Shown one piece after another: positions 22,451-58,100 of a stretch of 64,000 nt of DNA. A program made the position numbers and the translations under genes. Position 1 is the first letter of the stretch, and the number at the start of each line of letters is the position of its first letter. This stretch comes from Cymodocea nodosa (taxonomy: Eukaryota; Streptophyta; Magnoliopsida; Alismatales; Cymodoceaceae): assembly GCA_036874045.1 (NCBI GenBank), contig JAZBRI010000004.1, positions 3,844,001 through 3,908,000 on the forward strand, written 5' to 3'. The notes below the pieces were generated by a model, which worked only from the letters and a program-made list of their open reading frames with translations, searched no databases and was not told the origin of the DNA.

Positions 22451-23258
22451 TTTTAAAACATAAGGGAATATTGTAATTAGAATGTTTTTTAGTTCAAAAT
22501 TTTATTTGAAAAGCAAACAAAATAAATTTACTTGAAGATCTTGAAAAATAATTAGAAGGAATGTTAGATGGTAATATTTAACAAACTTTTACAGATGAAA
22601 ATGCATCTTCTACTATTGGATTAAGTCAAAATTATAGAAAATAAATTGTTGATACAATATGTATCAATATTGTGAGAGATATGTGAAAGAATAGAGATAT
22701 GTAATATGTATTTTATATTGTAAATATTGTTAAAAATGACTTTATCTTGTATTATCTATGATAAATTTTGTTATTTTCTATCTTGCAAATATTGATAAAA
22801 AATATTGAATTTAATTAATTTTTAATATTTTTTAATTTATAAACAAACATATATACTTTATCTTTTATAATTTTCTATCTTACGTACAAACACACATATT
22901 TTAAAATACATCATTTTCTATTATATACACAAATAATTTAATTTTCTACTAACTTTTTTGTTAATTTTTATCATTTTTCACGGATTCTTAGACTTCTTAA
23001 AAAAAACCTCTGAAGTATAAAAGATTGAACGTCGTAATTAGAATATTATTTAATGGAAAAACTTTGTCCATGCATCTAATGATCACCCCTTCGAAGTTAC
23101 GAATCCTGCCTGCACTCACAGATCGTCAAATCTACATATGAATTAAGCGACGAAAATCTAAATTTTATTACCGCTGCATCTGCACGTGCTTCAAATAACA
23201 CCCCGATAAGAAAACTAGAAGGGACAAGCGACAGGACGACGCCAGCACATCACTTCTT
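22451..23258. other. AT-rich 3' flank of the oxidase gene
   Basis: Mostly AT-rich and without genes. On the minus strand an AATAAA is present at 23169-23164, about 90 bases past the oxidase stop codon, and is a plausible polyadenylation signal. Confidence 0.5.
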
Positions 23259-28922: not shown

Positions 28923-30697
28923 AGGGTGAGGGCGGACAGTTGCAGGTTAGGGTTTTGTGCGAGTTCGGATTTAGGCGATCTTATTGTTTTGGTACGAAAT
29001 TAGGATTTTCTCAGTTTCTACTAAAGATTTTGGATTTTTGTCAATTGGAACATGCCGTTTTGGATATCATACCGTAATAAATTACGTGATCATGTGCGTG
29101 CCTATGGGAATGAAATATTTCGGTTTTTTTTTTATGTACCCAGCATTGATATAACATCGACAAATTAGCGTATGTGTTTTAATCAAGAGATGCATAGGTA
29201 TGCCCTAGTAGAGAAATTGTGTTTGTGACGCACACAACATTCACCTTTTATTTTTGTAGCCGAAGATTTGTGAAGAACATAAGTTTGGTAATGTCTAAAT
29301 AATTGTGTCGTTTAAACTTGTATTGGTAAATGTACGAGTTTTTCAAGTGAGAGGTATCATCAAAACTTCAAAGGAATGCGACAATTTCTACTTTTCTACT
29401 CTCTTTCACTTGCCAAAAGTTAGTCCTAAGCCAGAGATTAGAAAAAAATGCTTGAATTCAATATTTTCAATTATTCATTGCTTTTAGTTCTAATGATCAC
29501 TGAAATGCACGCGTAATACTTAATGAAATTCCAAAAATAAAATTTGAAACTTAAAGTTGGTAAATTTAAATGTGCAATCGTAATTCAACATTTAGTTTAA
29601 AATACAATGGTTGAATGATTGAATTGATTATTGTCTATGGAAATTAGAGTAAATTAAGTCGATGGTATGTGATGATTATCGTGGTGTGCAATACTAAATC
29701 TTCAATGATTTCATTTATTTATTTTTTTGAAGGTGAGAGGAAATCAAGTCAGTATTATTTGGATTTCCAGATTGGTAGAAATCTTTTATTTGATGCAAGG
29801 GTTTTTCTTGACCATTCGTTGATGCCTGGGCTATGGGTAGGAGTCTTCTCATCATGAATTTAAATCATTTTGAATGAGAAATTAGGAAAGTGCTTAGAGG
29901 AATTTTGGAACAAATTGCTTAGCACTTGCTAACATGCATAAACTGTAGATGATTAAACATTGAAAATGTATTCCAGATAAAGCAGGTGAACAATCTGAGG
30001 TGTTACAAAAAAATTACAAATTTATAAGATTTTTACGTGCATCACCTTTCTCTCCACTTTTATTCTAAATTTGAATTTAATTGTTTGGTTTAAGAAATTA
30101 TTTACATGTAGAACTTTGTAACTGGTTCCGGAATGTACCAACCACCGTGAAAAATAAATCAACTTGGAGTATAGAATGACTTTGGTTTTACATTCAGGGA
30201 ACAGTGAGTGTGAAACTGATAATTGCCAAAAGTTTATTATCACAATGACAAAAAAAAAAATGTCAAGTGAGATGCTGTGCACGTAACTGAGACGGATATC
30301 TAATGGTAAGCCGTCATCAAGTTGTTCAACTATGCCTTTTGACATCTGGCATCCTTAGAGAAACTTTTCGGCTTATCCAGCTCCTACAAGAGCAATTGAA
30401 GTAAAGGTGTTCGTCCAAATCAATGCATAACAAGAAACCGAAGACCGTAGAATTTAGCAAAATTTTGAAATTTGAACAAAGCTTATGTTAATCATTTATG
30501 ATGTATATATGTTTTTAATTTTAATAGAATTGGTTTCACCTCCATTGACTTATTCTAACAAACATAATGCATATGGCTTTTTTTTTTCTGTTTGTTCATA
30601 TTTTCATGATGTCATTTTTTAAGGTTTTTTTTTTGAGGATTGGAATTTTACATTCTGTGAATTTTGCAATTGTAAGGTGCAAGAATGTATCTTCTAG
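28923..30697. other. Downstream flank of DPH3, nothing recognised
   Basis: The 3' UTR of DPH3 (to about 29100) is followed by AT-rich sequence with scattered small open frames (29305, 29669 on plus; 30022 on minus) that show no domain or splice context. Confidence 0.45.
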
Positions 30698-30838
30698 AAT
30701 TTGAAAATTTGGTCACTTACAGTATTTTCAGCAAGCATTGAAAGAGAATCATTAAAAGAGAAGAAAAACTCAGCACACAGATAGGGGGAGAAGTTAGCTC
30801 AAAGTCAGGGGGAGGAATCCCTTCTCGTCAGTATAGTA
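30698..30838. repeat. Inverted repeat arm at the broken Copia 3' end (left arm)
   Basis: This stretch on the plus strand reads GAATTTGAAAATTTGGTCAC through to TATAGTATTGATAAATT. It is the near-perfect reverse complement of 31316-31456, which lies just inside the element before its polypurine tract. The two arms enclose the partial 3' LTR. Confidence 0.85.
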
Positions 30839-30841
30839 TTG

Positions 30842-31195
30842 ATAAATTTTGATTTTCCTTTTTCTTTCGGATAGTTAACTCCATAACTCTTCAATCATTC
30901 AACCAACTTAATTGTCTGATATAATAGCTCTCCGAAGGCTTTGTAAAATTTGAATAGTTATCTTTCTAACTGTTTGAAAGTATTGCTGTTGTTTTATTCT
31001 TCAGATACTTGAACCTGTAATTGTCCGATTTTACTGTAACTTGAAAGTATTATCATCTGGAGCCTTCTCAATCTGTTTGTCTGCTTGGAAATTGTTCTAA
31101 CATCCTTCTGAACTAAAGCAGTGCAGACTTAACTGTGAAATACAATATATTTCCTCACATAGGTTTTGCATTATCAAAATACTCGGGTTCTAACA
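30842..31195 (-). repeat. Truncated Copia 3' LTR
   Basis: On the minus strand it starts TGTTAGAACCCGAGTATTTTG and is collinear with 36059-35710, the first ~350 bases of the 5' LTR, with scattered substitutions. It stops abruptly at the inverted repeat arm. The rest of the LTR, including the CACGTG array, is absent. Confidence 0.85.
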
Positions 31196-31315
31196 ATCTC
31201 CTCCTTTTTGATAATGACAAAAATCTTTACATTTATTTACATATATTTCACTCTCTAGTGTATTACTATACAATCAGTCACACAGAGAAAAATAAAACAG
31301 GAATTTATCAATACT

Positions 31316-31456
31316 ATACTGACAAGAAGTGATTCCTCCCCTTGACTTTGAGCTAACTTCTCCCCTTATCTGTGTGCTGAGTTTTTCTTCTCTTTTAATG
31401 ATTCTCTTTCAGTGCTTGCTGGAAATACTGTAAGTGACCAAATTTTCAAATTCTTC
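31316..31456. repeat. Inverted repeat arm at the broken Copia 3' end (right arm)
   Basis: This is the native copy: the sequence lies between the RNase H end and the polypurine tract of the minus-strand Copia. Its reverse complement recurs at 30698-30838. Confidence 0.85.
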
Positions 31457-31592
31457 TCCTCCTTTTTGTCATTATATAAAAATGTGAGGACTGTAAAACT
31501 AAGTTTCTGTAAAATTGATATTGACTGTATCCTACACAAGTAGGTTAGTAAAAAAAAAAGCTCTCGTATGGTGAGCTTGATGAAAAAAATAT

Positions 31593-32665
31593 TTAAAGAT
31601 CTTGTAAAGAACATATTCCTAAATTTCGTCTAATATGATTAAAAGTTGATTCATTTAAAGGTTTGGTGAAAATATCTGCAAGTTGATTTTCTGTTGGCAC
31701 AAACTTAAGTGAAATGTTCCATTTCTCCACATGATCTCTCAAAAAATGATGTATGATCTCGATATGCTTGGCTCTGGAATGAAATATTGTATTCTTAGAT
31801 AGACTGATTGCACTGCTGTTGTCACAAAATATGATTGAATTCTGAATTTTCAGTCTGTAATCTGCTAGAGTTTGCTTCATCCAAAGGATTTATGCACAGC
31901 ACAATCTAGCTACAATATACTCGGCTTCAGTAGTAGACAAAGCTATACAATTTTGTTTTCTATTGAACCATGAGATTAAAGAACATCCAAGTAGTTGACA
32001 AGTACCACTAATGCTTTTTTTATCAGATCTGTTGCTGCATAATATGCATTACTATAACCTGTTAAAATCAAACTACTGTCAGCTGAGTAGAATAATCCAA
32101 AATCTTTTGTTCCTTGTAGATATCTGAAAATTCTTTTGACTGATTTCAAATGTGATTCCTTTGGTGATGCTTGAAATCTAGCACATAAACATACACTGAA
32201 CATAATATCTGGCCTGCTAGCTGAAAGGTATAACAAGGATCCAATCATACCTCTATATTGCCTTTGATCTACTGCAACACTTGAATCATCTATTTCTATT
32301 TTAATGCTTGAATTCATTGGAGTATTTACGAATTTGATGTTTTCATAACCAAATTTTTTCAACATCTCTTTGCATTTTTTAACATTAAAAGAAACAGTAT
32401 AGCCTTTATCATATAATTGTCCTACACTTAACAAATTTTGTTTTAATCCATTTACATGCAAGACATTCTCAATTATACCATTTTCAGATGTAATATTTCC
32501 TATTACAGTTATTTTACACTTTTCATTATTTCCAAACTTAACAGATCTTGAACTTAAGTTTTTAACTGAGTCAAAAAAGCTTTTCTTACCTGTCATATGT
32601 TTTGAGCATCTACTGTCCACAATCCATTTAGTTGAACGTGCTTGAAACTCCTTGTCACCCTGCAA
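31593..32665 (-). pseudogene. Copia pol remnant: pre-protease start fused to RT tail, then RNase H
   Basis: The frame 32665-31976 begins with the gag-pre-integrase segment (WIVDSRCSKHMTGKK, then LLSVGQLYDKGYTVSF). Without a break it passes into the C-terminal part of reverse transcriptase (KKFGYENIKFVNTPM, YRGMIGSLLYLSASRPDIMF). Integrase and the YVDD core are therefore deleted in frame. A frame change follows at a seven-base A run (plus-strand T run 32015-32021). RNase H then continues with SISGTCQLLGC, one stop, and the frame 31880-31593 (FCDNSSAISLSKN, AKHIEIIHHFLRD, QLADIFTKPL). Product function is not expected. Confidence 0.88.
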
Positions 32666-32756
32666 ATTATACTGAAATTAAAGCTTTTGGTACCCACATC
32701 TTCTTGGGTCCAGTAGAGTTAGTCCTTAAAACATTAAATCTATTGCCTCTTGGCAG

Positions 32757-34165
32757 CTACATATGACCTGATCTTCGTTTGATGGCAAACACAGTGGTGC
32801 CATTTCTATAAGATCGAATCACTCCACCACAATAAGGTATTTCCTGTGGTGTAGCATACCCTAGGCCATATTTATTCCCATTTGATCGTTGAGATCTTAT
32901 TATTTTATTTAATCCTTTTTGTCCTTGAGTAAATTTACATATAGTATTTTTTAAATCTAATATAGTAGTTGATATATTTTTATTTTCATATTTTAATTCA
33001 CAATTATCACAACTATACTTATCTAAATTTGATTTTAGATTCTTATTTTCAACTATAGTTGATTCTAATTCAGCAAATGAATTTTCTAAGCAATGATTTA
33101 ATCTTTTAATTTCTTTCTTAAAATCTCTACACTTCACATATAAATTATCTACAGTAGATAAGAGACTGTTTATGTACAAATCATTGTGCTCATTTTCTAA
33201 ACTAGAGGAAGTAGAGTATACCTCTTGTGCTGCAAAACAAACATTTGCTGCAGCTTCTTCTTCAGAATCTGATAAACAGCTTAAAGAGCTACTGTCATCC
33301 CATGTAGCTTTGAGAGCCATCTTCTTTTTGTCCTTCAATCTCTTCTTCTTATATTCTTGATCCTCTTCTGTCTGAAATGGACAGAAGGTCTGCATGTGCC
33401 TTTGCCTTTTACATTTGAAACATGTAGGAACAGTTCTTTTAGAGTAGTTGGACTTATTCTTTTTCTTCATGAATTTCTGAAATTTCTAGCCACCAACATG
33501 ATCTCATCATCATCTGAGCTTGAAACTTCTTCTATAGATGGAAATGCTATTTCCTTTTTCTTTTCAGCTTTCTTTTCAATAGTTCCTTCTTGCTCTTTCC
33601 AGTCATTCATCTGAACTTCGTAGGACAGAAGATTGCCCAACAATTCTTCAACTGTATAGTTGTTAAAATCCTTGGAATCTTGAATAGATGTGGACTTTTG
33701 TTTCCACTCAACAGTTAAGCTCCTCAGGATCTTCTGTATCTGTTCACGTGAAGAAAACTCCTTTCCTAAGCCTTTCAGACTGTTAGTGATTTCAGTAAAT
33801 CTAGAAAATATTTCAGTTATGTTTTCATTATCATTCATTTTAAACAGTTCAAGTTTTCTTAAAAGAATACTGATTTTTGTATCCTTAACCTGGCTTGTAC
33901 CTTCATGAGTAACTTGAAGGATTTTCCAAGCCTCATGAGCAGATTTACATGCAGATACTTTATTATATTGATCAGCAGTTAGTGCACAATAAATGATATT
34001 CAACCCTCTAGCATCCAACTAGATGATTTTCTCATCCTTTTCAGACTAGTCCATAACATTACTAGTTGGAAGTGTAGTTCCAAGAACAACAATCTTCCAA
34101 TAGTTATAATTGGAGCCATCGAATAGGGGAGGTCTGTGGATGTTTTGTACCTCAGCAAATTAAGC
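32757..34165 (-). pseudogene. Copia gag (UBN2-type) with zinc knuckle, frame-broken
   Basis: The minus-strand frame 34018-33467 carries the UBN2/gag fold (ARGLNIIYCALTADQYNKV, AHEAWKILQVTHEG). Its N-terminal start (RPPLFDGSNYNYWK) is visible upstream to about 34165 but separated by stops near 34060 and 34020. A frame change near 33470 leads to 33470-32757, which holds the CCHC zinc knuckle CFKCKRQRHMQTFC and a Ser/Glu-rich and coiled-coil-like region. Gag packages the element RNA. This copy needs at least three repairs to read through, so it is inactive. Confidence 0.85.
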
Positions 34166-34219
34166 CATAAATCCTGATGGTTAAATCTTATGAAGGATTA
34201 ACCTTGCTTTGATACCAAT

Positions 34220-36059
34220 TGTTAGGATCGGTAGACTCACCAGAGGGGGGATGAATGGTGAAAGTGTGTAATTTTTAAGTTCTTTTGAATGTTGAAACAA
34301 ATGATTCAGATAGAAGTGAAATGAGATGAATTTAAACGAATGCAAAGCAATAAAAAAAGATAACACACAACAAGTTTTAGGTGGTTCACCAACTTGGTTA
34401 GTCCACCCCCAAGATTCACTTGGGCTTTACTAAGTGTTTCAACACTTACACACTTATTTTCAGGTCAAAGCAAGAACCAACAACACATAAGTTTTCAGGT
34501 AAAAACTTTAGTAAACCAACCTCTAGAGTTTTCAGGTTAAAACTTAAACCAACAACTGAATGTAGCTTTCAGATTGAAGCCACGAACCAACAGCTTGAAT
34601 CTTTCAATCAGAGTTTGGCGCACAGAGCTTTTTCTGTAGTAAGTCTTTAGAGTATGTTTCACTGTTTTCAGACTTGAGTGTATTTGAAATTGGGGTGTTG
34701 CTCACTGTATATGTTATATCTGTTGTGTCTTCTTCTCTTAAACTCCTCATATATATGCTAAAGGCATAACAATCATATTTTTCTTTCAACGGATGTATTC
34801 TGCTTTACTTGGTAAATAATCAGACCTAAAAATGTTAAGTTACCGTTCTATCTGATATTCAGTAAATAACCTTCCGAAAATTTCAGGCTTTCGGATGGTT
34901 ATAAAAATAACTTACCGAAAAGCATCCATAACTTGTCGATTCATCACTCATGTTTTGTTCTCTAAGTCACGTGAGAATTTTAAGTTGCTCACGTGTAAAG
35001 TTAAGTGTTCGGAGTCTGGTATTTAACTTACCGAAAGAGCTCCTGATTTTTAGATAGTTAACTACTGTAACTTATCGAACTTTCATTTAAGCCTCTGACA
35101 GTTGTTCCTTCAAAACTGCACGTGCATAAAAACATAACTTAAGTTTCGGATAGTTAAGCCATAACTCACCGAAATTCTCTTGAGATTTCGGATAGTTATC
35201 TTTCTAACTCTCCGAAAAATCTATCTGAACATCTGTTTGGAATTCTACACGTGGGAAAATCACTAACTTAAGTTTCGGATAGTTAAATCATAACTTACCG
35301 AAATTCTCTCAAGATTTCGGATAGTTATCTTTCTAACTCTCCGAAAACTTAAATGATCTTCTTTCTAGAATTCTGCACGTGACAATTTCAATAACTTAAG
35401 TTTTGGATAGTTAAACTGTAACTTATCGAAACTCTTCTTTGAAATTTGGATAGTTAACTAACTCTCCAATTTTTCTCTTTTAATATTTCAACTGCCGGCA
35501 TCTCCATTTTGCACGTGCGTAATAAAATAACTTAAGTTTCGGAAAGTTATGCCTGTAACTTACCGAAAAACTCGAATAGTTATCTAACTCTCCGAAAAGA
35601 AAACTCGGATAGTTATCTAACTCTCTAGTAAGTCCTTTAAGCTTACATTCTATATTTCTGCACGTGATTTATTGAATGACTTAAGTTTCGGATAGTTAGC
35701 CTTTCTAACTTTTCGATTTTCCTTTTTCTTTCGGATAGTTAACTCCATAACTCTCTGATTATTCAACCAACTTAATTGTCTGATATAATAACTCTCCGAA
35801 AGCTTTGTAAAATTCAGATAGTTATACTTTTAACTGTCCGAAAGTCTTGCTGCTGTTTTATTCTTCGGATACTTGGACCTGTAACTGTCTGATTTTACTG
35901 TAACTTGAAATTATTATCATCTGGAGTCTTTTCAATCTGTTCGTCTGCTTGGAAATTGTTTTAACAGTTTTTTGAACTAAAACAGTACAGACTTAACTGT
36001 AAAATATAATATATTTCCTCACATAGATTTTGCATTATCAAAATACTCAATTTCTAACA
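34220..36059 (-). repeat. Copia 5' LTR (about 1.84 kb)
   Basis: On the minus strand it starts TGTTAGAAATTGAG (36059) and ends CCTAACA (34220), i.e. short inverted TGTTAG/CTAACA termini, directly followed by the primer-binding site. About 34960-35700 is made of degenerate ~130-bp tandem units with repeated TTTCGGATAGTTA and AACTTACCGAAA words, most of them also holding a CACGTG. Confidence 0.88.
34968..35666. promoter_or_regulatory. Array of seven CACGTG (G-box) motifs in the Copia LTR
   Basis: CACGTG occurs at 34968, 34990, 35119, 35248, 35376, 35512 and 35661. Apart from the first pair the spacing is 129, 129, 128, 136 and 149 bases, following the tandem unit of the LTR. CACGTG is the core bound by plant bZIP and bHLH factors (G-box; with ABRE-like flanks it responds to abscisic acid or light). 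Its position in the LTR of the minus-strand element fits an enhancer role, but that is inference from the motif alone. Confidence 0.6.
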
Positions 36060-40191: not shown

Positions 40192-43100
40192 ATGGGAGAA
40201 GCGCAGACGGTGCATTCGGCCATTCTCACCTACACCTCCATGGTCTCTCTCCTGGTCCTCTGCCCTCCCTTCGTCATCCTACTGTAAGCACCGATTTTGT
40301 GTTTGTCTTCTTCTTGGTTTTCTATAGGTTGGAAGGTGGTCATGTAGATTAAGAGATTGAGTTGGTCGTTAACTAATGTAGCCGGTAGTTGATTTGCATG
40401 TGACTGATGACTTGGTTTGAAAGCGAGTTTTGCTCAGATGCTTTGTGGTTCCTGCATGTCTTTCTTCCTGATTGGAGTGGGTTTTTTTTTTTGTTTTTTT
40501 GAAATGTTCTATTGTACATGGAAATGGCATGTTGTAATCCGCTGTTAACTTCTATTGGTATTGGCTGTTTTGCATCGCAGATGGTATACAATGGTTCACG
40601 CTGATGGGTCTATTCTTCTTACGTTTGAGCACCTAAAGGATCATGGAATCCAGAGTTTAAAGAACATGTGGCCGTCACCTTCCCCTGTCGCTTGGAAAAT
40701 CATTGCATGTTTTGCTATTTTCGAGGCTTTTCTTCAACTCGCATTGCCTGGAAAGAGAGTAGAGGGTCCTGTATCCCCATCAGGAAACGTACCCGTTTAC
40801 AAGGTATTCGTTGTTTAAATATTTGAGCGATATATATCAAGGGGTAGTAAACCTGCTGCATGGTAAACAAGGTCATGCCAGGAATTCTACTGCACAATTA
40901 ACGTACTACTTGTTGGATTAAATTAATTAAGTGTTGGATTTAATTAGGCCCATTTAATTATAATTAAATATAATCCGTGATTAGTACCAAGTAAACTTAG
41001 TTAATTAGTACTAAATAATAAAGTGAAAAAACAAAGTTAAAGACATGGAGGAGAGATGGTGTCTTGTGCATGGGTGTGATGCTTTCTTTAGTCCCATATA
41101 GCTAAAGAAGAGTGTTCTCTTTGATTCATGGCCTATGAGCTCAAGGATTATTGTTCACCAACAGCTTAAGGTAGGCATGAAGTACTCAGAACACACGTGA
41201 AGGTTGGCTGAGGCTTTGGAAATGGTCTCTGATGACATGGGTTAAAAATGTGGGCTAAGTGGCCATTGTAGAGAGGTTAAAGCTGTCTATAAAAGGAAAG
41301 GGGACAGAAGTGGTAGAATAATGTTGGAAACTTATGCATCTCTCTCCTTTTGTTCTCACTCCCTCTTATTTTTAATGGTTTTATGATCTTGTGTGTTTCA
41401 ATCGGCAGTGTCTGAGGTGTGGATGGTGTGTGGTGCAAGTTTCATTATGTGCTGAAGTCATTGTGTTTGTTTTATGTTGGGAGAAAGGCAAGGACCTCCT
41501 TTTGTACCAGATAATGGGGTGTTGATTTCTCTAAGATCAATCCTACGGGATGACTTGATCAAATAAGTTTCTAACTTATTCTTTTCCTGGTTTGGTTTCA
41601 ACATCAATTTGTTTTGATGACTTCCTATGGATGTATGTTTTTGTTTTTCATTGGCATGTTAATTATTCTTGAGCATATTTTCAATATACTTAAAGAAATC
41701 ATATCAATTTAACATGTCATCGATTTCTATTTGTCCTTGGGTTGACATGGTTGGAATGCTTGAAAAGTTTTCTAGGCCACATTTTAAAAGTTGAAAACAA
41801 TGGTTGAAGATCTTGTTGACCTTTTTGGGGTTGTATCTTGCATTGATTCAGATTTTCCTATTCCAGAATGTCTGCAAATTGGTTTGTCCTACAAAACACC
41901 CAACATAGAGAGAAATTGGAGTATTCATATGATCCTTTTATCATGTCCATATAATTGTAAGCTTTTTCTAAACAAACTGGAAACATGCAAATGTGTTCAT
42001 AAACCTCAGAAAGCCAATTGGATGTTGCATATGCAGAACAAGTTTCTGCATACTAAACCTAGATTTTACTATTTTTTCCATGGGTAGATTCTATTAATTT
42101 TAAATATCTGATTTTTCAATTAAGAAATTTAAGCTATTATCTGTCCTTTGATTTAAGCCTCAATTCTCTTAGCACTATTTTTATGCACAAAAGCTCCTAT
42201 CCATGCTTATCTGTAGTCTGATCTGAAATCAGAACCTCAACATTTGGTCTGTTCTTCAGCAAGGCCAATCTACAACCCACAAACACAAATTAATTTACTC
42301 ACTTTAATCATGCCTATAATCTCAAAAATTATGATGTTATGAGAGCATTCTTAATATTATATCTAATTGCAAGTCATATGTTGTTTTAATTCTCTACGAT
42401 TGAGAATTTCAAGGACCACTAGTATCATTTTGTCATGCTATATGGTCCTCTATTTTCTATTGAGAGTCTGAAACTATATGCTGCTACAGTAGTGGTGTTG
42501 TTTAATGGTTATCAGCAACAAATCCATCTGTATTAGTCATCTGAAATTATGCAAATTCTTGATAATTTTTCTTTTTTGGAAAAAGAACTCTTCAAAATCT
42601 TCCATGCTCAATTTTACTGATATAAACTCTTGTAATAGTAGAAGTCAATAGATGTTCAAATTTGGATGTGGTTTTTGTTTCTACCTAAGTTTCTAACATA
42701 TTGCTCTTCAACTACTTTTTAATCCATGGTAATCATCCCATTTAGTAAAGCTAGACTTCCTTGATAGAACAAATTCTACATTTAGGTGCATCTTTAATGT
42801 CAAGGTGTATTTATTTTCTTAGTGATCTCCTACCATCTATTTTGGATGATTTCATTTTGACATAGTGTTCAACATTAATGAATACCACCTCTGATATCTA
42901 GGAAAAAACTTATAATATTTTTTTTGTAAATATCAGCCACAAGATGTTCTTTGTATACCATGTTATGGCATACGAAATGATCTTCCTATAAGAATGGGTC
43001 TCGAGAATTGCTATTATTTTCTGTCATTCACAAAACATTGGTATGCCATCTTTGATTCCTACAACTCGTCACTTTGGCCTCATCCTTTCTTTGTGTTTAT

Positions 43101-46100
43101 CCCTTAAATTGTCTTTACTTTTTTTTTTGGGTCATGACAATGCATTATTTTCATTATTCTTTGCACCAATCATTCAGATATCTCTATTCTGATTAGATTG
43201 GGAAAAAACAATAGTGCTATATCAAGATTGAATTTTAGTCAGGTGCTTTGGACAGGAGGATCTTGTTGTTGTTTAACCAAGTGGATCTCTCAGTTTTCTC
43301 GTAGCACCCACATGCCTCAATCTATCCAATCGAAGTAGAACAGTCTTGTTGTTTATTAATCATGTGGATACCATGTGATGAGATGCAAAGCAACCCTCCT
43401 ATAAGAGTGGCCCTTGAGAATTGCTACCATCTGTATGTTATTCACAAACATTGTTATCCATCTTTGATTACCACACCCTTTCAATTCTCTTTTCGATCCT
43501 TTCTCTTTCTAATTTTTCCCTTCATTTATCTTTACTTTGGTATGTTTTGGTTTGATAGGGCACTCTTCTCATTATTCTTCACATTATCATTAGGATATCT
43601 TTATTCTAATCAACTTGGAAGGAAGCAATGGTGGCATATCAAGATTGATTTTCAGTTGGGTGCTTTGGACATGAAGATCCTGTTGTTGATTAATCATGTG
43701 GATTTCTTGGTTTTCTTGTAGCATCTATATGTCTCGGTCCTTCCAACTGGAGTAGAACAATCCTATTGTTAATTGATCATGTAGATCCCGTGTGATAGCA
43801 TGTAGAATAATCCTCCTTTAAGAATGGGTCTTGTGAATTGTTGCTATTTCTATGTCCTTCACAAAACATTTGTATCCCATCTCTGCCTCATTCTTTCTTT
43901 GTATTTTTTCCTTAAATTGTCTTTTGCCTTTTTGGTTATGATAGTGCACTCTTCTCAATCATTCAGATATCTCTATTTTGATTAGATTGGGCAAAAGTAG
44001 TAGTGCTATATCAAGATTGAATTTTAGTCAGGTGTTTTGGACACGAGGATCTTGTTGTTGATTAATCAAATGGATCTCTTGGTTTTCTTGTAGCACCCAC
44101 AAGCCTCAATCTATCCAATTGGAGTAGAACAACCTTGTTGTTTATTAATCATGTGGATGCCATGTTTTGAGATGCAAAACAACCCTCCTATAAGAGTGGC
44201 CTTTGAGAATTGCTACCATTTGTATGCTATTCACAAACACTGTTATCCATCTTTGATTACCACACCCCTACAATTCTCTTTCCGATCCTTTCTCTTTGTA
44301 ATTTTCCCCTTCATTTATCTTTACTTTGGTATGCTTTGGTTTGATAGGGCACTTTTTTCATTATTCTTCACATTATCATTAGGATATCTTTATTCCAATC
44401 AGCTTGGAAAGAAGTAATGGTGCCATATCAAGATTGATTTTCAGTTGGGTGCTTTGGAAATGAAGATCCTGTTGTTGATTAATCATGCGGATTTCTTGTA
44501 GCATCTACATGTCTCGATCCTTCCAACTGGAGTAGAACAACCCTATTGTTTATTGATCATGTAGATCTTGTGTGATGGCATGTAGAACAATCCTCCTTTA
44601 GGAATGGGTCTTGAGAATTGTTGCTATTTCTATGTCCTTCACAAAACGTTTGTATCCCTTCTCTGCCTCATTCTTTCTTTGTATTTTTTCCTTAAATTGT
44701 CTTTACTTTGTCTTTTTGGTTATGATAGTGCACTCTTCTCATTATTCTTCACACCAATCATTCAAATATCTCTATTTTGATTAGATTGGGCAAAAGTAGT
44801 AGTGCTATATCAAGATTGAATTTTAGTCAGCTGCTTTGGACACGAGGATCCTGTTGTTGTTTAATCAAGTACATCTCTTGGTTTTCTCGTAGCACCTACA
44901 TGCCTCAATCTATCCAATTGGAGCAGAATAGTCTTGTTGTTTATTAATCATGTGGATGTCATGTGATGAGATGCAAAACAACCCTCCTATAAGAGTGGCC
45001 CTTGAGAATTGCTACTATTTGTATGTTACTCACAAACACTGTTATCCATCTTTGATTGCCACACCCTTGCAATTCTTTTCCTGATCCTTTCTCTTTGTAA
45101 TTTTCCCCTTCATTTATCTTTACTTTGGTATGTTTTGGTTTGATAGGGCACTCTTGTCATTATTCTTCACATTATCATTAGTATATCTTTATTCCAATCA
45201 GCTTGGAAATAAGCAATGGTGCCATATCAAGATTGATTTTCAGTTGGGTGCTTTGGACATGAAGATCCTGTTGTTGATTAATCATGTGGATTTCTTGGTT
45301 TTCTTGTAGCATCTACATGTCTCGATCTTTTCAACTGGAGTAAAACAACCCTATTGTTTATTGATCATGTAGATCACGTGTGATAGCATGTAGAACAATC
45401 CTCCTTTAAGAATGGGTCTTGAGAATTGTTGCTATTTCTATGTCCTTCACAAAACGTTTGTATCCCTTCTCTGCCTCATTCTTTCTTTGTATTTTTTCCT
45501 TAAATTTTCTTTACTTTGCCTTTTTGGTTATGATAGTGCACTCTTCTCAATCATTCAGATATCTATATTTTGATTAGATTGGGCAAAAGTAGTAGTGCTA
45601 TATCAAGATTGAATTTTAGTTGGGTGCTTTGGACACAAGGATCTTGTTGTTGTTTAATCAAGTGGATCTCTTGGTTTTCTCGTAGCACCCACATGCCTCA
45701 ATCTATCCAATTTGAGTAGAATAGTCTTGTTGTTTATTAATCGTGTGGATGCCATGTGATGAGATGCTAAACAACCCTTCTATAAGAGTGGCCCTTGAGA
45801 ATTGCTGCTATCTGTATGTTATTCACAAACACTGTTATCCATCTTTGATTACCACACCCCTGCAATTCTCTTTCCGATCCTTCCTTCATTTATCTTTACT
45901 TTGGTATGTTTTGGTTTGACAGGGCACTCTTCCCATTATTCTTCACATTATCATTAGGATGCCTTTATTCCTATTAGCTTGGAAAGAAGCAATGATGCCA
46001 TATCAAGATTGATTCTCAGTTGGGTGGCTTGGACATGAAGATCTTGTTGTTGATTAATCATGTGGATTTCTTGGTTTTCTTGTAGCATCTACATGTCTTG

Positions 46101-49100
46101 ATCCTTCTAACTGGAGTAGAACAACCTTATTGTTTATTGATCATTCTTTCTTTGTATTTTTTCCCTAAATTGTCTTTACTTTGTGTTTTGGGTTATGATA
46201 GTGCACTCTTCTCATTATTTTTCACACCAGTCATTCAGATATCTCTATTCTGATTAGATTGGGCAAAATCAGTAGTGCTATATCAAGATTGAATTTTAGT
46301 CAGGTGCTTTGGACATGAGGATCTTGTTGTTGTTTAATCAAGTGGATCTCTTGGTTTTCTGGTAGCACCCACAAGCCTCAATCTCTCCAATTAGAGTGGA
46401 ACAGTCTTGTTGTTTATTAATCATGTGGATGCCATGTAATGAGATGCAAAACAACCCTCCTATAAGAGTGGCCCTTGAGAATTGCTACTATCTGTATGTT
46501 ATTCACAAACACTATTATCCATCTTTGATTACCACACCCCTGTAATTCTCTTTCCGATCCTTTCTTTTTCTAATTTTCCCCTTCATTTATCTTTACTTTG
46601 GTATGTTTTGGTTTGATAAGGCACTTTTCTCATTATTCTTCACATTATCATTAGGATATCTTTATTCCAATCAACTTGGAAAGAAACAATGGTGCCATAT
46701 CAAGATTGATTTTCAATTGGGTGCTTTGGACATGAAGATCCTGTTGTTGATTAATCATATGGATTTCTTGTAGCATTTACATGTCTTGATCCTTCCAACT
46801 GGAGTAGAATAACTCTATTGTTTATTGATCTTGTAGATCCTGTGTGATGGCATGTAGAACAATCCTCCTTTAAGAATGGGTCTTGAGAATTGCTGCTATT
46901 TCTATGTCCTTCACAAAACATTTGTATCCAATCTCTGCCTCATTCTGTCTTTGTATTTTTTCCTTAAATTGTCTTTACTTTGTGTTTTGGGTTATGATAG
47001 TGCACTCTTATTATTTTTCACACCAATCATTCAGATATCTCTATTTTGATTAGATTGGGCAAAAGTAGTAGTGCTATATCAAGATTGAATTTTAGTCAGG
47101 TGCTTTGGACACGAGGATCTTGTTGTTTAATCAAGTAGATCTCTTGGTTTTCTCGTAGCACCTACATGCCTCAATCTATCCAATTGGAGCAGAATAGTCT
47201 TGTTGTTTATTAATCATGTGGATGTCATGTGATGAGATGCAAAACAACCCTCCTATAAGAGTGGCCCTTGAGAATTGCTACTATTTGTATGTTACTCACA
47301 AACACTGTTATCCATCTTTGATTACCTCACCCTTGCAATTCTTTTCCTGATCCTTTCTCTTTGTAATTTTCCCCTTCATTTATCTTTACTTTGGTATGTT
47401 TTGGTTTGATAGGGCACTCTTGTCATTATTCTTCACATTATCATTAGAATATCTTTATTCCAATTAGCTTGGAAAGAAGTGACAATGCTATATTGGGTGC
47501 TTTGGACATGAAAATGTAACATCTCCAAAGGGAGACACCATAATGGGGTTGATGATTCCAGGGAAGAAGAGGGTGAGAAAAGGAAGAAAGAAAGGAAGGA
47601 AAAGAAGAAGAAAAGAGGGAGAATGGGAAGATGATGGAAAGGAAGGTGGAAGAGAATGAATTTGCAACTTAGTTTGTTGAGGAAAAAACTAAGAAAACCA
47701 AAAGGGAGAGGATAGACTATTAGTCTGTATCAAAGATTCTTGACAAGTATTTTGGGTACAAGAGGGGAAGGTGTTAGACATCCATCCTACCTAATTGATG
47801 GTCAGCCTTTGAGTGCTTGTAGAATAGGGTTTTGGTTGAGTCCTTGACGTTCAACATGACAAAGATGCAAAATGATGCATGATAAAATAATAAACTCACA
47901 AGGATGCATGTAGGTTAAAGGTTGGGATGTTGAAATGAACTGTAAGTCTTTGTGTAGTGAACCTAGGGTTTAATGGAGCAAGAAAGAATACAAGGGGGCC
48001 TACAAGGATTCATGTAGAGACTCCAAAAAAAAGTTAAGTGTGGACTGCTAGGATTTATGCAAGTTTAAGGGTTAAAGCTATATCTGCGAGGATCTATGTA
48101 GGTGCAAGAGATTGATTGATACAATGAACTTGCAAGGATTCATCTAGGTTTTGGGTCATCTAGCAAATGACAAACAATAGTGATTCATGTTGTAGTCAAA
48201 GTGGAAACTTCATAAATGCTAACTTATTAAATGTATGTAGAATGGGCTAACTACAAGGATTCATGCAACAACCATATGGAGTTACGTTGATGGTTGGTGT
48301 TAGTGTAGGTTGTAGAGATTCACATTGCCACCTAGGGGTTCCCCTAGCTATCTAAGCTAAACATGAACCCCTCCCTTATGCTACATGGTTTCTTACGTTT
48401 AGTTATCCCTTCTCTTACTTAGGTGTTTGTAAGTGCTTCAAAGTTCCTAAAGGCAAGATGTGTTCTTGTTGGAAATAGGGGCCTTCAGTCGATCGTGAGT
48501 TTGTTGTTCGGGAAGTCTTGAAAAATTGCAAATTGCAAGAGTTTTGAGTGCTCCAAACTAAGGGGTACCAAGGGAGAGTTGGAGGGGGGGGGTTGCTCAT
48601 TGGTTCTTCTTTTTGTGGAAGGGGGGGGGTTGCTCATTGGTTCTTCTTTTCATTTTATCTTTTTTTTTTTTTTCTGCATTGACTATGGCTCCCTCTCCAA
48701 AAATCTTTTCTTGCCTTCTTTACCTTTGCTAACTTTCCTTTTTCTCTCCTTTCTATCATTGTACCTTACCTATGTTATGATAGTGTTAGGGATAAAGGTA
48801 AAACACTCCCTTTTTCTATGCTTCTAACCACACTTTTCGTTGCTGCCACTTGATGAGGTTGATTAGGGCGTTTTGGCGCTTCTTGCTTGTATGTCCATAG
48901 GTGCAAGGGTAGTTGAAGGGATACTTACGAGAATGATTAGAAAAGTGTGTCTTGGCTTGATCTTGGTTAATAAGGGTAGAATCAACATTTCATACTTTAT
49001 AAAGCCCGATTTTTGTAGAAATATTTCTTGGGCCCTGTGTTGATTTTCTAATTGCCACACGTCTTTTGAACTTTCTCTAGTGTGGTAGTGGACAAATACA

Positions 49101-52100
49101 ACTATTTTGGAAAATAAATTGCTGGGAACTCTTGAATTAAAGCATTCTAGGTGGGAATTTCAGTGTGATTTTGTTGGGTGTATGCATTCAACAAATAGGG
49201 AAGTCGAGTGAGGTTAGAACCATGGAAGGTGTTAAGTCTTAATGTCTGGTAAATCCATTTGATATCTGCAAAATGTTGAGCGCCTTGTGCTACCAAGGAC
49301 TTGGTTGGATCAAATGTGAGCTCGGTCTAAATGGAGGGGTATAAAAGTCTTAAGGATCTATCTAACAATTCCAAAAAGTCGGGTGATGACATTTGGAAAG
49401 AAGCTAGGGATGGATATCGAGAGGATTCACTTGACAAAGAAGAAAAGTTAGGTCTAGAGACCCAAAGAGGGATAAAGGGGAAATATCGGAAGGATTCATC
49501 CAACAAATCGCAATGGCAAATGGCCTGATGAAGCGGTTTGGTCTGGCTAGGTATGGGTTCAATTCAATTGAAGTAGTGAAGTCGAGAGTATTCATCTGAC
49601 AAAGTGAGAGAAGTTAGGTTAAAGAACCAAAAAAGAGATTAGGTGCCAATGCTAGAAGGATTCACCTAACAAAGGTAAAAAGTCAAGTGAGAACACCTGA
49701 AAAAAAGTTAAGGATGGATGTTGGGCGAGTTCACTCGATAAAGAAGAAAAGTTGGGTCCATAGACCTGAAGAAGGATAAAGGGGAAACATTGGAAGGATT
49801 CATCTAATAAATTGCAATCATCGGGTGAAAGGCCAAACAAAAAGGGTTTAGTCTAGCCAAGTGTGAATACAGTTCGATCGAAAGGATGAGAGTTGGGAGG
49901 ATTCACCTGACAAAAGAGAGGAGTTAGGTCAAGGGACTTGCTAAGAGGCTAAGTGCCAATGTTGAAAGGATTCAAAGGTAGGAAGTTGGGTGACTACGCT
50001 TGGGAAAGAAACTAAGGATGGATGTTGAGTGGACTTGCTCGACGACCAGGAGAAGTCAGGTCCTAAGACTTGAAGAGGAATGTTAGAAGGATTCATCCGA
50101 CAATTTTAAAGTGAAAGAGACTAAGGACAGATGTCAGGTGGACTCACTTGACAATCAGGAAAAGTTGGGTCCCAAGACCTAAAGTGGAATGATTGAGAAT
50201 AATGGAGTTAAACTAAAGGGGTTTAGTGACTTAATGCCTAAGCCGTCAAACGGGTTGGTGAATTAAAACCTAAGTCGTTAAAGGAGTCGATGAGCCATTA
50301 GCAAAAGGTTTGAAATGAAATGTTGAAAGGATTCATTTGACAATCTAGGAAAAGTTAGGTCTTTAGCCTTGTAGAGGAATGTTGGAAGGATTCATTTAAC
50401 AACCCAGGAAAAGTCAAGTGTATAGGCTCGAAGAGAAATGTTGGAAGGATTCACCCAATAATTCCAAAAGGTTGGGTGATGATCACCCAAAGAGAAAACT
50501 AAGGACGAATGTTGGGTGATTCTACCTGAAAATTGAAAGAAGTCGGGTCCTTAGGCTTGAAGATAGGTAGAGGAGTAATGTCGACTTCACCTGACAACCA
50601 AGAAAAGTTGGGTCCTTAGACTTGAAAGGAGATGGACTAAGAATGACTAATCAAAGAAAAGATTACTGGAATTAGATGTGAGGTGTCAATAAATGCCCCT
50701 CCCTAGATGATGTTGCAATGTAGGTTGCATAATCGTTATCTAGGGTAAGAAGACAGTTTGTATTCAATATCAAACAATCAAACCTTAAAACAAGTCTCTT
50801 CAAAGGATTCATTAAGGAATGATATACAGTTTAGGCTCCTACTTGTGAGCATAAGTAAGAATGTTTGTTGGGGATGAATAGGGGGCAAAGGTATCAGCGA
50901 TAGATGACATCCCCTTAAAGGATTCACTAAGGGTAAGATCTATTCCTAAAGGATTTATCAAGAAGGGATAAGTACTTTAGGTTCCTGCCCAAGAGCACAA
51001 GCAAACTTCTCTTGAAGGATTCATTGAGAAAGACTAACAATGTTGAAAATAAACTTCTCCTTAAATCATCTTTTAAGGAGGGATAGGCAGTTTAAGCTCC
51101 TACTCAGGAGCTAAGAGAACTCTTCCTAAAGGATGTATCAAGAAGAAGAGGATGATTGAAAGTAGAATCTTCTTAAAGGATTCATTAAGGAGAGAGATCT
51201 TTTTGAAGGATTCATCAATAAGGGAAGATATTGACAATAAAACTCTCGTTAAAGGTTGCATTAAAGAGAGAAACCTTCTTGAAGGATTCATCAAGAAGGG
51301 AGAATGCTGACAATAAAACTCTCCTCAAAGGATGCATTATAGAGAGAAGCCTTCTTGAAGGATTCATTAAGAAAGGTGGAGGATGCTGGAAATAAAACTC
51401 TCCTTAAAGGATGCATTAAGGAGAGAAATTTTCTTGAAGGATCCATTAAAAAGGAGGAGGATGCTGAAAATAAAACTCTTCTTAAAGGATGCATTAAGGA
51501 GAGAAGCTTTCTTGAAAGATTCATCAAGAAGGGAGGATGTTGAAAATAAAATTCTCCTTAAAGGATGCATTAAGGAGAGAAACCTTCTTAAAGAATTCAT
51601 CAAGAAGGGAGGATGTTGAAAATAAGACTCTTTAAAGGATGCATTAAGGAGAAACCTTCTTGAAGGATTTATCAAGAAGGGAGGTTGTTGTAAATAAAAC
51701 TCTCCTTAAAGGATACATTAAGGAAAGAAACCTTTTTGAAAAATGTGGAAGGCAATGCTTTGCACCATTTAGAATGTTAAATGAATGACTTGTTAACCCT
51801 TACCGTCACATGATTTTAATCACTTATAACTTTAAAGTCTTGATTAATTAAAATGTAAACGGGGGGGTGGTAACCTTATTGATAGTTGTCTAGTTGCCCC
51901 TTAGAAAAAATCTTCTTCCCATTTTTTCTTCTTACTACCTTTTCCCCTTTCTTTTTTGAATAAAGCATTTGACACAACCTGCTCTAACAGGGTTTGTCGG
52001 GTGAAATGACCCGCATGTTATAAAAGGGAATGTCAAGTTTTGAAAGTTTCCTTGCTACTCAACTTTTTTGACCAATTTTCTTCCTTTAGTCCTACTGTTG

Positions 52101-55100
52101 TTCCTTCGTCTTCCTTTGCACTTGTTCCTTTAGCTCTACAAGAGGTATGGAGTGTCAACAAAATGCACCAACTCACTAGCAGCAATGCTTTGATCAACGT
52201 AGCTTCTGGTTGACTTGCTCTCCCTTTGTGGTAGTAGCTTCGACCGAGGTCAAACAACGTCAACTTCTTTGGTTGGTTCCTAGTGACAAAGACTTTGAGG
52301 AGGAGGTGGTGGTAAGTGTCTTGAGTTTTTGACTTGTAAGGATCTTCGCCTCGAATCTAACAGTTTTGTTCGTGATAGATCCTGTCCTTCACTTGGGAGA
52401 CCATTGACAGGTTTCTGTTTGAAATTCTAGTCTTTGATTGACAAAAGTGATCACTTGGAGAGAAATGTTGAAAGGATTCACCCAATAATTTTAGAAGGTT
52501 GGGTGACGATCACTTGGAGAGAAGACTAAGGACTGATGTCAAGTAGCTTCACTCGACAATCGAGAGAAGTCGGGTCCTTAGACCCAAAGAGAGTTAGAGG
52601 AGGAATGTTGGGAAGATTCATCTGATAATCCCTGAAAGTCAAGTGACAATCACTCGAAGAGAGGCTAAGGATGGATGTTGGGTGGTTTTACTTGACAACT
52701 AAGAAAAGTTAGGCCCTTAGATTTGAAAGGAGATGGACTGGGAATGGCTAAGAAAAGAAAAGATTGCTTGAATTAGATGTGAGGTGTCAACAACAGATCT
52801 TATTGTTGATTAATCATGTGGATTTTTGAGTTTTCTTGTAGGATCTACATGTCTCGATCCTTCCAACTGGAGCAAAACAATCCTATTGTTTATTGATCAT
52901 GTCAATCCCATGTAATGCCATATAGAACAATCCTCCTTTAAGAATGGGTATTGAGAATTGCTGCCATTTCTATGCACTTCGCAAAACATTGGTATCCCAT
53001 CTCCACCTTATTCTTTCTTTGTATTTTTTCCTTAAATTGTCTCTACTTTGTCTTTTGGGTCATGATATCTCTATTCCAATTAGATTGGGAAAAAGCAGTA
53101 GTGCTATATCAAGATTGATTTTTAGTTAGGTGCTTTGGATGCATGGATCTTGTTTAATTGCATGGATCTCTCGATTCTCTATTTATCGTGCAAACTTCGT
53201 TGAAATACTTATCGCTTTCTCTTAGAGTTTTTGGGTGTATCAGTTTGGTTCATGACTTGTCTTTGGGTCTCAATAAGTTAGCTCCTTGATCCTTGAAGTG
53301 TGTTATTGTTGACTACTCTTAGACACAATGAGGATATTGTTGCATTATGTTCCTATGAGATGGCACTTGGTGTCTATTGATGTTACATTTTATGAATTTC
53401 ATTCCTACTTTGATTTAGTCAATGATCATATTAATAGTGTTCCTCTACCTTAGTTGTCCTCATTGCCTTTCACAGATGGAAATGGAAGTGGTTGTTTAGA
53501 TAAGAAAATAAAAACTTCACATCCTTTGTAGGTATATTGTTGATGTTAATGGGTACAACATCCTTTACAATCAATCATCCCTTGATCACCATTGTTAATC
53601 CTTTGCAACCATCACCTGAGCCCTTTGTGCTACTTGTTGCCCTAAAGAAGGGTACAAGTGTAAAGATATAGAGAAAAAGAATTATCATTTTTGTGGGTGG
53701 GGAGAGAGAGAAATTTATTTTTCTCACCCCTTTTTTCCTATAACTAGATTGAAAGTTTTTCCCTACCATCTTCCTACACAAGGAGGTTGACTAGGGGTGT
53801 TGTTTCAGTGACCAACAGTGTGTGGGTAAGGAGGGAGGATCAGTTTGTTGCAACCGCATGCGAGAGAGGTGCTACCATTTATCACATCATTTGCCTTTTT
53901 TGATCACTTTCCATGCAAGGTGTGCTTTGTCAAATGGAGAAGCAATTTGTGTGAGGAAAAATTATTGTGTTGCAATTGCACGTGAAGAAGATGCCACTGA
54001 CAATTGAAACCCACACGTTGAGAGGGAGCAGTCATCAATAGTGGTTATGCGTGGGAGAAGGGGAGGAAGCCAATTGAGCTTAGTGAAGAAGGGGATTTTT
54101 GGGGGAAAATTGTGATTTAGCCTTTGGTAATTTTTTCTACTAATTAGTCCAGAAGTAGTATTATTATCGATTATTGCACCTTTATCGTGGATTATTGCAT
54201 GTAATTGTAAACTATTGCATATTATTATTGATCAATGCATATTATTGTAGACTGTAGCATATTATTGTTAACTAGTGTTAAGCATGACATCATTATCAAA
54301 ATTATTTGTGATTGTTCATAATCAACATTTATTATGTTGGGATTGCATTTTGTTAGGTGTGAATGTGCATTATTATTTTATTTATTTATTAGATTTGTTA
54401 GTCATTTTATTTATTAGATTTCAATGCATTTGTGTATAAATGACTAAATAATGGGAAGACTTGTTTTATTATTGTGCATGCAGCTATTTAAATAGTGAGG
54501 AACACATTGATAGATAATTATTGTATGATTACATTTGGGGGCTAAATTGTAGTATCGTATGCGTAATTATGAAACTAGTCGACCTTTGGGCTCCATCATA
54601 GTGGTAAGTGTGACTTTTGGATCTAGTTGCAAAAGTTATATGTAGTCGTAGTTAGATATTGTAATTATTGAAATAAATAAAATAATTGTGGCATGTGACT
54701 TGTGATAATACATAACACATTCATTTGTTATTGCCTCTCTTCGATTTGCTCATTTATTTTGACTTGTTAGCTTTCCCATGTTTGGTATTGCATATTTCTG
54801 TTATTTATGAACCATTAGTATATTGCTTACTGGGGTGTGGCTCATTAGATGTGGTTATGTTTTTTTAGGTCCTTGAGAGAGTCCCCAAGCTGAGCGTGTA
54901 AGAGATAACTTCTTAGTTGGTTGCTAGGTTGTGGTGGCTGTTTTGTTGGTTCTATGCTAAGTTGTAGTATTTTGTGTTTTGTTGGTGGAATTGGAATATT
55001 GATGAAAATTGTAGATTTTACATGTTTTGAAGAATTTAATATTATTTTGTGAATTTTATTTCTAGGAGTTATTATTTGTTAAATCTCCTTTAGCAGGTAC

Positions 55101-58100
55101 ATTGCAATATTAGGGAGAGGAATTTTTTACATTTTTTTAAATTTTTCTAACATGAATTTCCTTCTTGATATTGCAGTAATTGTTATTTTCCAAATTTTTG
55201 GGTATGACAATTATTTTGGTGTCAAAGCTAAATGTTTAACTATAAGATTTAGGTCTTATAGGTTACGTGAGTGGGATAAAAATAGTAAGTGTGCAGATTG
55301 TGAAACTTATCTTGGAACTAACCTATTTATTTTTGCTTCATTGCAGGATATAGATAGAGACAAAGATGACTGCTCTATGTGGGATATACTCCTTACAATT
55401 GGAAGATGAGAATAGGAGTAGAGTTTCTCATTGCTATCACCCCCACTTTCTCTAGAGAGGAGGGGGACCTACGAGATGCCTATCAATGGTTGCATCAAAT
55501 GGAGAAATACTTCAAGATCTTTCCCTACATTGAGGAAGTGAAGGTTAGATTTGCTATCCACATATTGTAGGGGATGACCCTAGAGTTCTGGGAGATTGAG
55601 AAGAGGCTCCACAAGTAGGTGGAAGAGCTTTGGACGTAGAAGGATTTTTGAGAGATATTCTTTCAAATGTACTTTCCTCCTAATGTTAGGTTAAAGGAGT
55701 TGGATTTTGAAAGACTGCAGCAGAGGACCATGACTATGACCCAGTACAATCAAGAATTTACTCAATTGTCCATATTTTCCTTGAGACATGTGGTAGAAGA
55801 GAGCAAGAAGATATTCGAATTTTGTCAAGCATTGGATGCCCTAATTGAGTATGCGATGTCCTTGCATTAGCTAACTACTTATAAAGCAATGATGCATTTG
55901 GCCATGATGACTGAGCAAGACTTGAGGGGTAATGAGCTACAGACATAGTTTTTGCACACTTCCAGTTGATCGGGGCTACTTCTTTTGTTTCTTAAGGGTA
56001 GTCAAGTAAGAGATCTCCTAGTGTTGCACAAAAGGGTAAGAAGGCCAAACAAGATGTACCCTCCTATCCTAGATGCAGGAAGAACCATTTTGGATGTTAC
56101 AGATGGATGGAAGGTAAATGCTTTAGGTGTGAACAAGTAGGCCACAAGATTGTAGTCTGTTGGCATGCGGTAGAGTTTGATCAGAGCATTGGTGCAAGTC
56201 CTACTTGTCAACAGCATTAGTATTAGCCACAAATGTAGAGGTAGGGTGCCACTTGGTACTCTATGAGTAGTGGCAACGACATAGGGCCTAGTACACAAAC
56301 TCTTGAAGGGCATGGGTTTGATGCAGGGAAGAGTCTATGCGCTCTCTAGCCAGGAGGTAAAAGAGTTAGATATGGTGATAGATACTATTTAGGTACTATT
56401 CAAAGGAGTCTATGCTCGTTGAGACAACGGCCCTAGTCAACCTCTTTGTGCAAATTGACAAAAGAGAAAAGCTTTCAATTCATTTATAGGAAAAAGGGGG
56501 TGAGAAAAATAAATTTCTCTTCTCCCACCCACAATATAATACTCTTTTTTTTTCTCTATATCTTCACAACAAGGACCTATACACTTCGTCCTTTTTCTCA
56601 TTTTGTTTGTTATGATAATTTAAATGCCTCTTTTCACATCTTTGTCCTATTTCTTTTGTTTGAGCTCTTTCAATAGAAAGCCACTATAGATGAGGAGACA
56701 TGTGCTGTCACATTACATTGTACATGTGAATTGATGGCTTGACCTATAGATGTTAGTGTAATCACTTGTAGATGAGTATATACTATCAAGTATAAGTTTG
56801 ATGGCTTAAAAGACAAATTCTAAACTTGTTTTGTTGTTTGAGGTTTCAACCTAACATATGGTATAGACTATGTAGAGATCTCTCTAGTTTCCTACTTGAA
56901 CTCCATCAAAGCACTTATGTTTGTAGCCATAAATGAAACCTAGGAGGTTTATCAGCTTAATGTCAAAATTGTCTTTCTTTATGACAACTGGATTAAGTAG
57001 GTGTTGATGGAGCAATCTCTAGGTATGTTGCTTAGGGGGAGGATCATGTTTGCCACTTAAGGAAAACCATTTATGGATTAAAATAAAGTTCCCGAGCTTG
57101 GTTTGGGAAATTCATCAAAGTTACTGTGTAAGGTGGTTTTCAAAGATGTGTTGTTGATTACTTAGTTTTCTATTGACAGTTTTTAACTAGTAATGTTATT
57201 GTTGTTGTCTATGTTGATGATGTTTTGATTATAGGTAGTGATTCAATAGATATTTAGATGGCAAAATAATGTCTCAAAATACACTGTCACCAAGGATATG
57301 GGTAAAGTATGTTATTTTTTAGGCATTGAGTTTACTTATTTGAGGGACAGCATGACACTATCTCCAGAGAAATATACTTTAGATTTATTACAAGAAATAG
57401 TGCTTCTAGGCTGCAAGTTTGAAAGTACACCTATGAAGCAGAGTCCATCCTTTTAAGATGATTCCTTTAGTCTCCTAGGAGTCGCTGATAGATATAGGAG
57501 ACTGATTAGTAAGCTGATCTACTTTGACTATTACTAGACTCAATATCACCTATGTTATTGCCCGAGGAGAAGTAAAAAGTAGATTGTTGTATCTTGATTT
57601 AGTGTAGAAGTAAAGTATTGCTCAATGGTGCAAATAGTTTTTGAGATGACGTAGATCAAGTCCTTGTAGATGGAGTTTGGTTTTGCTATTGAGGTACCCA
57701 TGGAAATGCATTGTGATAATTAGGTTGTCATATTTATTGTTAGAATTAAAAATGAGTCAACTAACTAATATGGAGCATAACATTACTATATAATTCCTTG
57801 TAGACAATAAATCAAAAGCAACAGTGACGTACCAATCTTAGATTTGTCTTAGCAAGAGCTGCACTTAGTGATATATTCCAGCTGCTTCAACAAATTTAGT
57901 TAACGTTACCAACTTCGTAATTGGATTAAGTACCTATATTGCACAACATATTAGAGCACTAGATTATTATCTATATTATTGTTCATAACTTCATATTGCA
58001 TTGACACTATATTTTAGTGTTGCCAATTTCTTATGGGTCATACATTACAATTTTCTTTATATTTTTTCATGTAGGCGAATGGTATGGCAGCCTATGTGGT

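Follow-up and report, generated by a model that had tools for sequence, protein, structure and literature searches.

A Gypsy remnant in Cymodocea nodosa bounded at both ends by the start of its long terminal repeat

We analyzed a window of 64,000 nucleotides of Cymodocea nodosa DNA (contig JAZBRI010000004.1, positions 3,844,001 to 3,908,000 of the forward strand) and found at 53659-56568 of this window a plant Gypsy remnant nested in the pol gene of a Copia element. In 5' to 3' order, the remnant consists of a long terminal repeat (LTR), a tRNA-Met-type primer site, gag, a protease-like start and an inverted piece of U3, the region with which the LTR begins. Direct reading of the letters showed that it opens with TGTAAAGATATAG and closes with a near-identical sequence in inverted orientation. 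We consider it probable that a complementary DNA (cDNA) with a U3 terminus at both ends was inserted into the Copia pol by a retrotransposon integrase, whatever the route by which this cDNA had formed.

The inverted ends were recovered by several comparisons. A repeat search paired 53659-53814 with 56413-56568 as inverted arms of 156 nucleotides that are 76% complementary when aligned without gaps, and BLASTN inside the window matched 53659-53807 to 56568-56420 in an alignment of 151 columns that is 80% identical (E 1.7e-29). When gaps are allowed, the arms agree at 126 of 153 gap-free columns; of the differences, 19 are transitions and 8 are transversions. Chance similarity of the arms was rejected, as the surrounding regions scored 177 compared to a maximum of 37 in 200 shuffles by two-base blocks. 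Each outer terminus coincides base for base with the beginning of the LTR (TGT(A/G)AAGATATAG). The right arm holds only the first ~145-156 nucleotides of the LTR, while the left side apparently holds an entire LTR of ~1.55 kb. A second LTR in direct orientation was not found; apart from the pair of arms, BLASTN matches between the element and the window were at most 38 bases long with E of at least 0.16.

Directly outside both ends of the element is the sequence ACAAG (53654-53658 and 56569-56573). The probability that two random 5-mers from the window agree is 0.0018. Because a 5-base-pair (bp) duplication is found together with two edges that are exact LTR starts, we propose a concerted insertion by integrase from two U3 ends, both of which a Gypsy integrase would presumably have used. 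A preliminary description of this stretch had placed an element at the same coordinates, with ~155 bases of LTR start at each end in inverted orientation and ACAAG on either side; direct reading, the repeat search, BLASTN and the comparison of the arms with each other bear out all of these observations.

The sequence on either side of the element allowed the site to be reconstructed as it may have been before insertion. As a relative for this comparison we used a second Copia pol fragment at positions 1-2488 of the window, which covers integrase, reverse transcriptase and RNase H. Pieces of the left flank align to positions 295-426 (E 9.8e-11) and 427-561 (E 0.002) of this fragment, and the right-flank alignments fall within its positions 988-2206, which span reverse transcriptase and RNase H; RVT_2 was additionally detected on the right flank with E 4.2e-17 in a hand-joined reading. 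Joining the flanks with a single ACAAG restored the Copia frame, reading ...LVALKKGTRTYTLRPFSHF..., and the joined flanks aligned without gaps to positions 741-884 of the Copia fragment (16 of 48 positions identical; E 8e-4 in a search of the window only, with composition correction off). Among 61 offsets compared at the protein level (-30 to +30), the join with a single ACAAG scored best at 64, and the join that kept both copies scored 33. A Pfam search with the hand-joined linker region gave no match. Since both flanks are parts of a single Copia pol and are joined in frame by one ACAAG, the two U3 ends bracket one target site, which an insertion of the integrase type would be expected to show. 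The pre-insertion site most likely held ACAAG once, with the two U3 starts as the edges of one insertion, and the reconstructed join is consistent with a short target-site duplication whose empty site would have been single-copy.

This join also bears on the possibility that a deletion fused two oppositely oriented elements, which had inserted independently or one into the other, and that the ACAAG match arose by chance. Nested and recombinant insertions are described as general in plants (PMC1950507), and a difference between the arms at 27 of 153 columns is as between different copies. However, a 5-bp match by chance has the low probability given above, the flanks join straight into one Copia frame at exactly this point, and a second insertion would have brought its own duplication and target. 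Two independent insertions are disfavored by the empty-site join, and we regard a fusion of this kind as very unlikely.

The Gypsy element is dead, as its frames are broken by stops; one frame over 55202-56420 has 25 stops in 406 codons. We placed the right boundary of the LTR at 55209 based on the TGACA found there and the primer site that follows, with seven bases separating TGACA from the primer-site-like TGGTGTCAAAGC. The label of the latter (55217-55228) relies on a motif that we take to be the complement of initiator tRNA-Met, and two further sites in the element match this motif with 3 mismatches. The preliminary description had called a gag, and this was correct by a narrow margin, as Retrotrans_gag (PF03732) barely passes with E 3.3e-5 and 24.5 bits, where the cut-off is 24.1. 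The zinc knuckle scored below the cut-off for zf-CCHC (E 0.067, 13.8 bits versus 20.8). At 56321-56431, MQGRVYALSS resembles the start of a protease and the DNG triplet its active site. Beyond the protease-like start, pol is missing from the element together with the 3' LTR; gag is thus followed by inverted U3 with the true 3' LTR gone, as had been described, and the protease-like start is what is left of pol. With respect to its classification, 53659-56568 has the Retrotrans_gag-type gag of a Ty3/Gypsy remnant and lacks two direct LTRs. The features of the locus are collected in Table 1.

Table 1. Features of the Gypsy remnant and of the Copia pol that surrounds it, in window positions
Feature	Positions	Strand	Basis
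Left-hand part of the host Copia pol, from integrase into the linker, ...VALKKGT	53212..53658	+	alignments
Left target-site duplication, ACAAG	53654..53658	.	direct reading
Left arm, LTR start (U3), TGTAAAGATATAG...	53659..53814	+	repeat search, BLASTN, gapped alignment
Putative complete 5' LTR, TGT...ACA, ~1551 bp	53659..55209	+	right boundary inferred
Primer-binding-site-like TGGTGTCAAAGC	55217..55228	+	2/12 mismatches to initiator-tRNA-Met complement
gag remnant, stop-broken; Retrotrans_gag over ~55559-55837	55406..55945	+	Pfam
gag zinc knuckle CX2CX4HX4C, different frame	56119..56160	+	reading; zf-CCHC below cut-off
Protease-like pol start, from MQGRVYALSS to a DNG triplet in the same frame	56321..56431	+	motif likeness
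Right arm, inverted LTR start, outermost base = U3 terminus	56413..56568	-	repeat search, BLASTN, gapped alignment
Probable junction of pol and inverted U3; ACAAC fits either side	56420..56432	+	inference
Right target-site duplication, ACAAG	56569..56573	.	direct reading
Right-hand part of the host Copia pol, TRTYTL..., with reverse transcriptase and part of RNase H	56569..57744	+	alignments, RVT_2

The right arm meets pol within the protease-like start. Over the 12 junction bases at 56420-56431, the right arm departs from the inverted U3 at 3, and these departures change N-N-T to D-N-G in the protease frame. The change suggests that pol sequence may have contributed up to ~56431.

A single strand-switching error during reverse transcription is the likely route to a cDNA of this form, as judged from one copy. 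In such an event, plus-strand DNA primed at the polypurine tract (PPT) would copy ~140 nucleotides of U3. The nascent U3 strand would then quit its template, anneal through ~5 nucleotides (ACAAC/GTTGT) where pol begins, on either RNA or DNA of plus sense, and there prime or template further synthesis. The minus strand so made would have the U3 start followed by protease, gag and primer site in complementary form, and an ordinary second jump would complete the molecule by supplying the full left LTR. In a mirror-image alternative, a plus strand growing through gag could jump onto displaced U3 plus-strand DNA and arrive at the same molecule. With a normal attachment site at either end, this molecule could then be inserted in the normal way. 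A strand switch would leave a complete left LTR and a partial right arm with an exact outer end, but neither the remainder of pol nor a 3' LTR. Also in its favor are the normal order of LTR, primer site, gag and protease-like start on the left and the ACAAC that pol and inverted U3 share at the junction. The preliminary description had interpreted the element as an aberrant cDNA with two U3-type ends inserted by integrase. The single-ACAAG join supports the insertion, whereas the cDNA route is read from one copy; the earlier reader was right in observation and probably right in interpretation.

Other ways of bringing an inverted segment into a cDNA were considered. Autointegration of Ty1 and retroviruses produces cDNAs that carry inverted internal segments, in the form of circles or with buried ends, and is not known to yield linear molecules that are free at two U3 termini. 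We set autointegration aside for this reason. Two broken cDNA pieces that were end-joined before integration would yield the same product as a strand switch, and the short common ACAAC would suit microhomology end-joining equally. However, no positive evidence points to this route, which requires two broken molecules in place of one strand-switch event, and we consider it quite unlikely.

The inversion could also have formed after integration. In this case, a full element would have inserted at ACAAG, a later break would have deleted pol and the 3' LTR, and ~145 nucleotides from the start of the left LTR would have been copied in inverted orientation and rejoined at the terminal ACA. The inverted U3 start and the putative U5 end both carry this terminal ACA, and microhomology could have restored the exact edge. 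Additionally, the inverted segment of a second Copia element in the window (30696-36059, described below) looks younger than the LTRs of that element, and late inverted copying may therefore occur here. However, repair synthesis would have had to halt exactly at the U3 terminus, beside an intact duplication and with no recognizable U5 remaining, and onward copying would have carried in the left flank. Because repair depends on this exact halt, we rated it below the insertion of a cDNA with two U3 ends and think it unlikely to have produced the element.

Another explanation is a foldback-type Gypsy family, in which the U3-to-U3 form is itself mobile, is moved in trans by a Gypsy integrase or otherwise amplified, and would be present in many copies. 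Both termini resemble attachment ends and form a possible substrate; nothing else supports such a family. Ordinary replication by reverse transcription is impossible for an element without a 3' R region, and when the 64-kb window was searched with the 16-base U3 start (up to 2 mismatches), only the two arms matched. We regard a mobile family as highly improbable. Our estimates for this family and for end-joining overlap with that for integrase-mediated insertion of a two-U3 cDNA, since the element could be a founder copy in the first case and would have reached the same form by another route in the second, and the estimates do not sum to one.

Several points weigh against insertion of a two-U3 cDNA as reconstructed here. 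The margin in the protein-level join was modest (64 versus 61 for the next offset), and at the DNA level, where a single ACAAG scored 68 and a double one 65, 2 of 19 offsets scored higher (70). The preliminary description had looked to an empty site with ACAAG in single copy, and our reconstruction upholds this in protein, where it was the best of 61 offsets; the DNA scores did not set the single-copy join apart. A strict pattern of the Copia linker motif had no match in the six frames of the unjoined window. The Gypsy element is known here as a single copy. Its arms now differ at 17.6% of aligned columns (27/153), such that a single reverse-transcription event requires either later mutation or a second co-packaged template, and the age of this divergence cannot be dated with the second LTR missing. 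Weak matches underlie the placement of the LTR end, of the primer site and of the protease motif: no second LTR end exists to confirm the right edge of the LTR, and neither of two protease-region queries matched Pfam. The precise position of the junction is uncertain, and the common ACAAC is short.

A second inverted case in the window is ambiguous, and we treat it as a lead only. The 5' LTR of a Copia element on the minus strand (30696-36059) starts at 36059, the primer site is at 34217 (1/12 mismatches) and the 3' LTR is truncated to 30843-31195. At its end, the element repeats its own internal stretch 31302-31454 in inverted orientation (30696-30848). On one strand, a PPT-like 12-mer occurs twice in the window, at 31198-31209, separated by two bases from the start of the 3' LTR, and at 31456-31467, separated by one base from the copied stretch. 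Because of the position of the second motif, the inverted segment ends approximately where plus-strand synthesis from this motif would start. The two spacings are not identical, and the copied stretch has other purine-rich runs. The arms of this element differ at 6/153 sites (96% identical) and its LTRs at 38/353 (89%; Fisher p 0.010); the arms thus look younger than the LTRs, which counts against a common origin. No convincing duplication was found around the element (left ...TATCTTCT, right TCTTATAC). Several PPTs near the 3' LTR are known in Sirevirus Copia elements (PMC2829016). It is conceivable, though doubtful, that PPT-primed plus strands of plant LTR elements recurrently turn round to prime or template the opposite strand, so that the far end of the cDNA receives a plus-strand start in inverted orientation. 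Such molecules would have two attachment ends and integrate cleanly if the true U3 terminus was involved, as in the Gypsy remnant, and would have one good end if an internal PPT was used, as perhaps in Copia 30696-36059. The U3-to-U3 elements among them would constitute a hidden class of insertions.

The window contains several other features. Adjoining the host Copia, a fragment at 52795-53154 is related to an array of repeat units at 42952-47493, in which close copies are ~780-830 bp apart and long matches are ~70-94% identical. A tandem array of ~8 copies of a 76-bp unit is located at 51114-51740. On the minus strand, 10614-12869 holds a DDE_Tnp_4-type transposon remnant with an At2g29880_C-like part (24.4 bits, below the cut-off of 26), and 10783-11654 has a diverged inverted match (65%) at 21643-22541. 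Two adjacent open frames at 23259-24590, also on the minus strand, likely represent a FAD-dependent oxidoreductase (DAO) gene.

If our interpretation of the Gypsy remnant is correct, it is a natural record of a retrotransposon integrase completing a concerted insertion from two U3 ends. It would also give a reverse-transcription error a signature, namely an inverted segment that ends at the plus-strand initiation site beside an intact target duplication. Searches that rely on two direct LTRs would overlook insertions of this kind.

Searches for relatives and precedents gave little. Pattern searches for gag relatives returned 5 matches in viral contigs and 23 in prokaryote genomes, and those for relatives of the Copia reverse transcriptase returned 8 in viral contigs; none was confirmed, and because these are not plant collections, the result says little. 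In literature searched by title and the start of the abstract, none of the papers listed described an element with two U3 ends; most subscription journals were outside the search, and this is weak evidence for novelty. Passages of PMC9258317 have nothing on U3-to-U3 ends, and the 'inverted LTR' of PMC8786324 is a Gypsy LTR inverted within a gene and a different thing.

Compared with known systems, the remnant shares its LTR start, tRNA-Met-type primer site and gag with ordinary plant Ty3/Gypsy elements, but has no 3' LTR and no U5 right end. Unusual provirus ends are common to it and to aberrant retroviral integrations, in human immunodeficiency virus (HIV) and in the Rous sarcoma virus end mutants cited in PMC5041404. 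In HIV with a weakened integrase, as described there, integrase inserts one end while enzymes of the host apparently join the other; duplications of host DNA at the aberrant end usually far exceed 5 bp, and other cases show deletions or inversions, whereas the 5-bp repeat here is clean. A closer comparison is with the template-switching complexes of Angela, Squiq and Opie, in which an intact 5-bp duplication was taken as a sign of one insertion (Sabot and Schulman 2007, PMC1950507). Those complexes, like the element described here, are proposed to be aberrant reverse-transcription products that entered in a single insertion with an intact 5-bp duplication. They differ in having three direct LTRs, and their defining features (an internal third LTR, two cores and similar outer LTRs) are replaced here by one core, one LTR and an inverted partial U3 as the second end. 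Mini-Tnt1 likewise gives evidence that a plant element switched templates (PMC2923131). Together, these two cases of template switching in plants, in which the duplications are intact, support a strand switch as the origin of the remnant. The element appears to be a variant, seen in one old copy, of a kind already known, the aberrant retrotransposon cDNA.

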